Source of the DNA: Saccharicrinis sp.
Lineage (GTDB): Bacteria; Bacteroidota; Bacteroidia; Bacteroidales; Marinilabiliaceae
Assembly (NCBI GenBank): GCA_024635555.1
Contig: JAGXIO010000037.1
Coordinates: 1 to 41,190 of the forward strand
DNA length: 41,190 bases
Reading direction: 5' to 3'
Numbering within the stretch: position 1 is the stretch's first letter; every line of letters begins with the position of its first letter. The notes beneath the pieces were generated by a model. The model saw nothing but the letters and a program-made list of their open reading frames with translations, was not told the origin of the DNA and made no database searches. This document shows, piece after piece, positions 409-25,513 of the stretch. The position numbers and the translations under genes were made by a program.

Positions 409-568
409 GAATGATTTTAACCTGCCCTATTCATAAATTTTATGAATAAGGCACCAAAGGCCGATTCTGCCTAAGCAGAATCGAGGGGTTAACCCTCGAA
501 AAAGTTTACTTAAACTTTTTCGGCTTTCCACCTATGATAGCGGAAAGTGAAAAATGCTTGCATTTTTC
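409..568. repeat. Run of six short-loop palindromes
   Basis: Six inverted repeats follow each other almost without spacer: 428-437/439-448 (10-bp arms, 1-nt loop), 462-470/475-483 (9-bp arms, loop CTAA), 482-487/493-498 (6-bp arms), 497-508/511-522 (12-bp arms, 2-nt loop), 524-529/542-547 (6-bp arms, enclosing the small palindrome CTATGATAG), and 549-557/560-568 (9-bp arms, 2-nt loop). The 16-mer GAATGATTTTAACCTG at 409-424 and the last hairpin with its GGAAAGT flank both recur near 25459-25500. It lies 5' of the left-edge hydrolase gene. Its function is unknown; a dispersed palindromic (REP-like) element is the simplest reading. Confidence 0.8.
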
Positions 569-25394: not shown

Positions 25395-25500
25395 AATTGA
25401 GGTACCTAAATTGTTTTATAAAATTATTAGTTTTTGAGTAAGAGTACTACTCATATCTGAATCATTTTAACCTGAAAAATGCACGCATTTTTCACTTTCC
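25395..25500. repeat. Second palindrome cluster, sharing parts with 409-568
   Basis: Four palindromes are seen: 25395-25412 (18 bp around GGTACC, one mismatched pair), 25414-25423 (TTTTATAAAA, perfect), 25436-25452 (GAGTA/TACTC arms), and 25474-25493 (9-bp arms GAAAAATGC/GCATTTTTC with a 2-nt loop). Positions 25474-25500 match the reverse complement of 542-568 at 26 of 27 bases, and GAATCATTTTAACCTG at 25459-25474 matches 409-424 at 15 of 16. The last hairpin lies 13 bp past the stop of the VIT1-type gene and could also end its transcript. Confidence 0.8.
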
Positions 25501-25513
25501 GAAACTTGAGGCA

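Follow-up and report, generated by a model that had tools for sequence, protein, structure and literature searches.

The six consecutive hairpins near the start of the window (the whole stretch of 41,190 nucleotides analysed here) lie within one copy of a repeat that is dispersed in the host genome, is intergenic, and has CCTG...CAGG ends related to those of the IS1380 family; matching 4-bp NTAR sequences, mostly TTAA, stand on its two sides. Very probably, this element is a MITE that relies on an IS1380-type transposase acting in trans and inserts mostly at intergenic TTAA sites. It shows features by which a MITE is recognised: (i) a length of about 150 bp without a transposase gene, (ii) multiple copies, and (iii) fixed ends with a target-site duplication. 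Judged from its sequence, it represents a putative new family of MITEs; its ends are of the IS1380 type, its kind is ordinary, and its hairpin chain is unusual.

Genomic copies, ends and target sites

Search of the host genome (G000, 259 contigs) revealed 57 matching pieces, the window included. Within the window and the 34 fetched loci, 35 rows measure 34 nt or more; 22 of them are two-ended and 13 are partial. Two rows, L010 and L030, have identical flank letters and are probably one copy split over two contig ends, so the rows correspond to about 34 genomic places. None of the 35 rows lies within an ORF of at least 100 amino acids, and some contigs stop at the element; at two loci (L009 and L017), the upstream ORF terminates at the TAA of the target site. 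For the window element, no ORF of at least 80 amino acids is listed across its approximately 150 bp. The element had no match in the plasmid collection searched, and a left-end pattern of 20 bases had no exact counterpart in viral contigs.

Alignment of the flanks defined the element as TTAA-CCTGCCCTATTCATAA...CATTTTTCAGG-TTAA, with four bases outside each end. The CCTG terminus is common to both ends, which read as inverted CCTG...CAGG; beyond CCTG the ends have little in common (8/16 and 8/13 identical positions). The sequence is T-rich before the insertion site and A-rich after it. Identical 4-bp flanks were found in 20 of the 22 two-ended copies, 18 of 20 being scored by a script and the other two (L026 and L028) by eye from the printed flanks. 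TTAA stands on both sides of 17 copies, whereas the matching flanks differ from TTAA in L018 (ATAA/ATAA), L023 (TTAG/TTAG), and L025 (CTAA/CTAA). Unequal flanks characterize the window copy (TTAA/TTAG) and L021 (TTAA/TTTA). TTAA being the preferred target as well, information on duplication comes only from the 5 copies that have a non-TTAA letter, and the flanks match in 3 of them.

The initial annotation had rightly described one dispersed and probably mobile unit that differs from a simple terminator. The intergenic position would also suit ordinary bidirectional terminators that are alike by chance, but the rows other than the window itself share 84-97% identity, which in the two-ended ones extends over about 160 bp, and this long identity, together with the fixed ends and matching flanks, refutes look-alike terminators; we assign this reading practically no probability.

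The hairpin chain and its conservation

In the window copy, the element body of 151 bp occupies positions 421-571 on the forward strand, with limits taken from the repeat alignment; its left end is CCTGCCCTATTCATAA and its right end is ...GCATTTTTCTGG, where most copies have CAGG. The unstranded target duplications are TTAA at 417-420 and, on the right, TTAG at 572-575, where most copies have TTAA. The six hairpins follow one another at 423-568 on the forward strand, all inside this one repeat. Hairpin 1 (423-453; 15-nt arms, 93% complementary) is made up of the left terminal repeat and, after it, a near-inverse of this repeat. Hairpin 2 (462-483) has 9 bp with the arms CGATTCTGC/GCAGAATCG, and its last bases are common with the first bases of hairpin 3 (481-499; 7-bp arms), a palindrome centred on an internal GGTTAACC that appears to be a unit boundary and is the start point of four partial copies. 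Hairpin 4 (497-522) has 12-bp arms and a 2-nt loop, the interrupted hairpin 5 (about 523-548) combines CTTTCC/GGAAAG with an inner stem, and hairpin 6 (549-568; 9 bp) is the right terminal hairpin.

Folding of the 409-580 region as single-stranded DNA gave -40.2 kcal/mol, compared with -15.2 (sd 3.0) for shuffled sequences (z -8.49; 0 of 200 shuffles equally stable). The hairpin search and the folding together reproduce the succession of six hairpins that had been noticed initially. The two sequence matches reported with it were also correct in their coordinates: 542-568 is identical at 26 of 27 positions to the reverse complement of 25474-25500, and 409-424 differs from 25459-25474 by one change. 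The latter 16-mer had been taken for an internal part placed in a new order, but it comprises the T-rich flank, TTAA, and the CCTG terminus; we take the leftover likeness of the two stretches, GAAT.A, to be a coincidence of host flanks. Thus, of the inverted and reordered second site that had been proposed, the match stands and the reordering does not: the 25459-25501 site is a truncated right end in the opposite orientation. This right-end-only copy (25466-25501, reverse strand) comprises hairpin 6, CAGG, and TTAA, and its 36 nt are 100% identical to the copy in L012.

To describe pairing across copies, the structure was placed by hand on alignment A3, since the automatic consensus structure of alignment A2 and the model R1 derived from it missed hairpins 1 and 4. 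A3 contains 15 of the 22 two-ended copies and the partial copy L032 from the host genome, along with 5 copies from G005 and G006. Copies with deletions or an insert and partial copies were omitted, namely L009, L011, L013, L014, L015, L021, and L023 from the host, and L055, L056, L057, L062, L063, L064, L066, L067, L068, L070, L175, and the second L059 copy from the relatives. The 21 copies of A3 give 1152 pair cells, and 92.4% of these are paired. Double-sided changes affect 10 of 55 pairs, compared with 3.2 upon shuffling, and 16 cells, compared with 3.5 (0 of 500 shuffles in each case).

Such paired changes, and the linker ACCAAAGG that is identical in most diverged copies, are what one would expect if an RNA structure under selection, a terminator, or a regulatory element had been dispersed through this transposition or through duplication and had kept its hairpins for an RNA function. 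The excess is modest, however, because slid controls that preserve relatedness also yield 3-9 double-changed pairs and 3-10 cells. In the RNAalifold consensus of 14 copies, 5 of 30 pairs are double-changed and the covariation term is unfavourable (+1.47 kcal/mol), and not all six hairpins survive in several diverged copies from G006. Rfam search of the window revealed no family at the gathering score, the mir-506 match (E 0.034) being far under the cut-off. ORFs within 300 bp turn their 3' end towards the element 24 times and their 5' end 22 times, which is no bias. On this balance we regard selection for RNA as an unlikely explanation of the hairpins.

Another source of paired changes is seen in L029, where template copying would make them without selection. 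In this copy, hairpin 6 is paired without a break over 22 nt, starting at the loop, crossing CAGG and TTAA, and ending 6 bases inside the host flank, whereas pairs 11 and 12 are unpaired in 30 of 31 other rows and L021 reaches 14. The inner arm in L029 is rewritten and contains an inverted copy of host flank DNA, so this arm reads as the mark of a template switch that took place at a DNA hairpin once the element had been inserted. More generally, template-switch copying may contribute to hairpin upkeep. Under the MITE interpretation, the chain may have arisen from terminal repeats lying beside their own inverse copies and from the joining of two TTAA-separated units; the hairpins would extrude in DNA and be kept palindromic partly by template-switch copying, for which one copy displays a clear event.

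IS1380-type ends and the candidate source of transposase

The only IS1380-type transposase gene found in the host genome (PF13701, searched at E 0.001) is located on contig C245 and is decayed by stops and gaps; the PF13701 profile search found no intact IS1380 gene in this assembly. The borders of the decayed IS resemble the ends of our element: CCTGAAATATGCATAA is identical to the right end at 12 of 13 positions, and CCTGCTTAATTCATAA to the left end at 13 of 16 positions. As a background, we scored 10,663 16-mers starting with CC in 34 loci of the same genome against the left end: 5 score 12, none scores 13, and the 26 that score 14-16 are presumably element copies themselves. The flanks of the decayed IS, ATAG/TTAG, differ by one base.

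Comparable elements were observed in other genomes, where the IS ends are identical to those of our element at up to 14 of 16 positions. The congener G008 has an open 454-aa IS1380 transposase ORF (NF033539, E 1.3e-108) bracketed by CCTGAATAATTCATAAA and CCTGAACTATTCATAAA, with CTAG on each side, and the IS of G016, whose gene is interrupted by one stop, has CTAT on each side. In a scan of 29 PF13701 loci (L107 and L127-L154) that sought likeness to the left end of this element and hence was not blind, such end pairs surround the gene in 4 loci (L107, L127, L128, and L154), and the flanks are equal in 2 of them; the four are the decayed IS of the host and the elements of G008, G016, and G003. 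In G006, which has many copies of the element, the open IS1380-type gene in L131 is without such ends. In G003, L154 (1357-1644) contains an IS1380 derivative of about 290 bp that retains the transposase start and has the flanks CTAC/TTAC, one base off.

The interior of the element is a different matter. A tblastn search with the G008 transposase, a single query representing only the coding part of an IS, gave no match in the window and L009-L042. As the interior lacks likeness to this transposase, the element appears on sequence grounds to be of the IS1380 type by its ends only. With this one query, an origin as an internal-deletion derivative of an IS1380 element is not supported, since such likeness is absent from the interior, unlike in the G003 derivative. 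In the mechanism that we propose, an IS1380-type DDE transposase would come in trans from an element that has since decayed in this genome or that the assembly lacks, would cut at CCTG/CAGG, and would insert the element at T-rich|TTAA|A-rich sites.

The initial annotation had instead suggested a REP-like element mobilised by a RAYT, and we considered a REP/REPIN-like element moved by this Y1 tyrosine transposase through single-stranded hairpins. Like REPs and REPINs, the element is a many-copy intergenic palindrome, and the genome has 10 matches to Y1_Tnp (PF01797), two of which, both on C166, seem to be fragments of a single gene. On contigs C209, C124, and C47, the element and a Y1 gene are about 4.5-6 kb apart, a proximity that we read as chance. 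None of the 10 Y1 loci fetched, with up to 1.5 kb on either side, contains the element at E 0.01. The 4-bp flanks match in nearly all two-ended copies, which is not expected of Y1 transposition, and the element ends match IS1380. A DDE transposase fits the inverted CCTG...CAGG ends with their 4-bp flanking duplications. The tags GTAG and CGTC, given for REPs in the excerpt of PMC3733652, are absent from both strands of the two copies tested. Therefore, mobilisation by a RAYT is not supported, and we hold it to be highly improbable. Integron attC sites and IS200/IS605 ends were dropped after inspection by eye.

Modules, relatives and known mobile elements

The IS1380-type MITE interpretation leaves the two-unit layout of the element to be considered. 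The internal sequence between hairpins 2 and 4 is GGGTTAACCC, and four partial copies start at this boundary, L035, L037, and L038 with TTAACC and L036 with TAACC, each in a different flank; a fifth partial copy, L033, starts three bases earlier. Right units occur alone four times, and the informative two (L036 and L038) are without matching flanks.

A second multi-hairpin family, with the left end TAACCTGAACTATTCATAA and the right end GG-NTAR, was observed to have the same layout of two TTAA-separated units. It is represented by L042, L109, L110, L111, L113, L114, and L116 in the host genome, by L157, L162, L166, and L170 in G022, and by L158 in G020. Its organization is [TTAA-CCTGAACTATTCATAA...]TTAA[CCC...GGG]TTAA, in which both the left and the right unit vary (L109, L110, L111, and L114). 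Among the two-ended non-TTAA rows of this family and its relatives, flanks match in 3 of 6: L109 (CTAA), L158 (CTAA), and L166 (TTAG) match, and L042, L157, and L162 do not. The TTAA-separated units seem to be exchangeable; either nested insertion or recombination at TTAACC could bring this about. In L111 (reverse strand, from 1222) and L062 (1942-2125), hairpins are extended by symmetrical extra arms with the arm base kept, and in L111 the CTTG loop is kept as well; L062 and L041 both contain GTTCGGCGCAGCCAAT.

Distribution of the element was analyzed in related genomes. Clear DNA-level copies are present in 3 of 9 genomes of the genus (G000, G005, and G006). A structure-aware search with model R1, as had been advised at the outset, was scored with stricter filters in 71 genomes of the family and gave matches in 6 of them: 33 in G000, 16 in G006, and 4 in G005, while the weaker matches in G022 (4), G020 (1), and G023 (1) belong to the related second family. 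Both flanks of the L012 locus are found together in 3 of 8 congeners (G002, G007, and G008) at 69-77% identity with the junction unaligned, and these loci contain no element at E 1; this absence points to a possible empty site, and no exact one was seen in the alignment. For the L023 locus, no orthologous flank was found.

Public species genomes, including Bacteroidales, Aminicenantes, and a Motiliproteus, contain the left-end pattern TAACCTGCCYTATTCATAAA in 20 stretches, and these stretches have no match to the G008 transposase. In the Bacteroidales MAG Zod_Metabat.37, a further repeat has the same left end (L076, L078, L081, L084, L087, L088, and L089); CTAA stands on both sides of it in L087 and L089, and the contig starts at or within it in L078, L084, L088, and L089. 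In an Aminicenantes MAG, L092 contains at about 1012-1274 a stretch of about 260 bp, TTAA-CCTGCCTTATTCATAAA...GTGAATAAAACAGG-TTAA, which is likely a MITE in another phylum.

Known systems close to the element include IS1380-family IS (PF13701, NF033539) and bacterial MITEs. With the former it shares CCTGNNNNATTCATAA-like ends and 4-bp NTAN duplications such as those of G008 and G016, whereas it has no transposase, measures about 150 bp against about 1.7 kb, and shows no transposase likeness in its interior. RUP, NEMIS/Correia, and ERIC are bacterial MITEs. So are, in excerpts of the respective papers, MITEPye1 of Paracoccus, with IS1182-type ends (PMC11578231), and BrickBuilt of Porphyromonas (PMC4596501). 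Like all of these, the element is short, non-coding, mostly intergenic, multicopy, and foldable, with flanking duplications; its own ends are inverted in CCTG/CAGG, and it differs in having IS1380-type ends and six tandem hairpins in two TTAA-separated units. The 4-bp duplication is not general to the IS1380 family, since a 5-bp duplication is listed for its Paracoccus member IS1247 in the part of PMC3281130 consulted. No IS1380 MITE with this layout appears in the portions covered of the open-licence literature (including PMC10140906, PMC3733652, PMC4596501, PMC4133298, PMC3281130, and PMC11578231).

The preference for TTAA is shared with piggyBac, a group of eukaryotic TTAA transposons, and an extract from PMC10140906 describes IS1380 transposases as its distant relatives in prokaryotes. 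Our element is bacterial and also uses other NTAR sites. A further-reaching reading, to which we give a low probability, is that the chain consists of two exchangeable TTAA-bounded palindromic modules with their own working ends, that this class spans several families and genera, and that extrusion is a part of IS1380-type end recognition or generation. If true, it would connect the IS1380 MITEs of bacteria with TTAA transposons and their hairpin chemistry.

The element adds a MITE family tied to IS1380. It may also serve as a natural record of hairpin-templated mutation, and it cautions against taking paired changes in dispersed palindromes as proof that an RNA structure is under selection.
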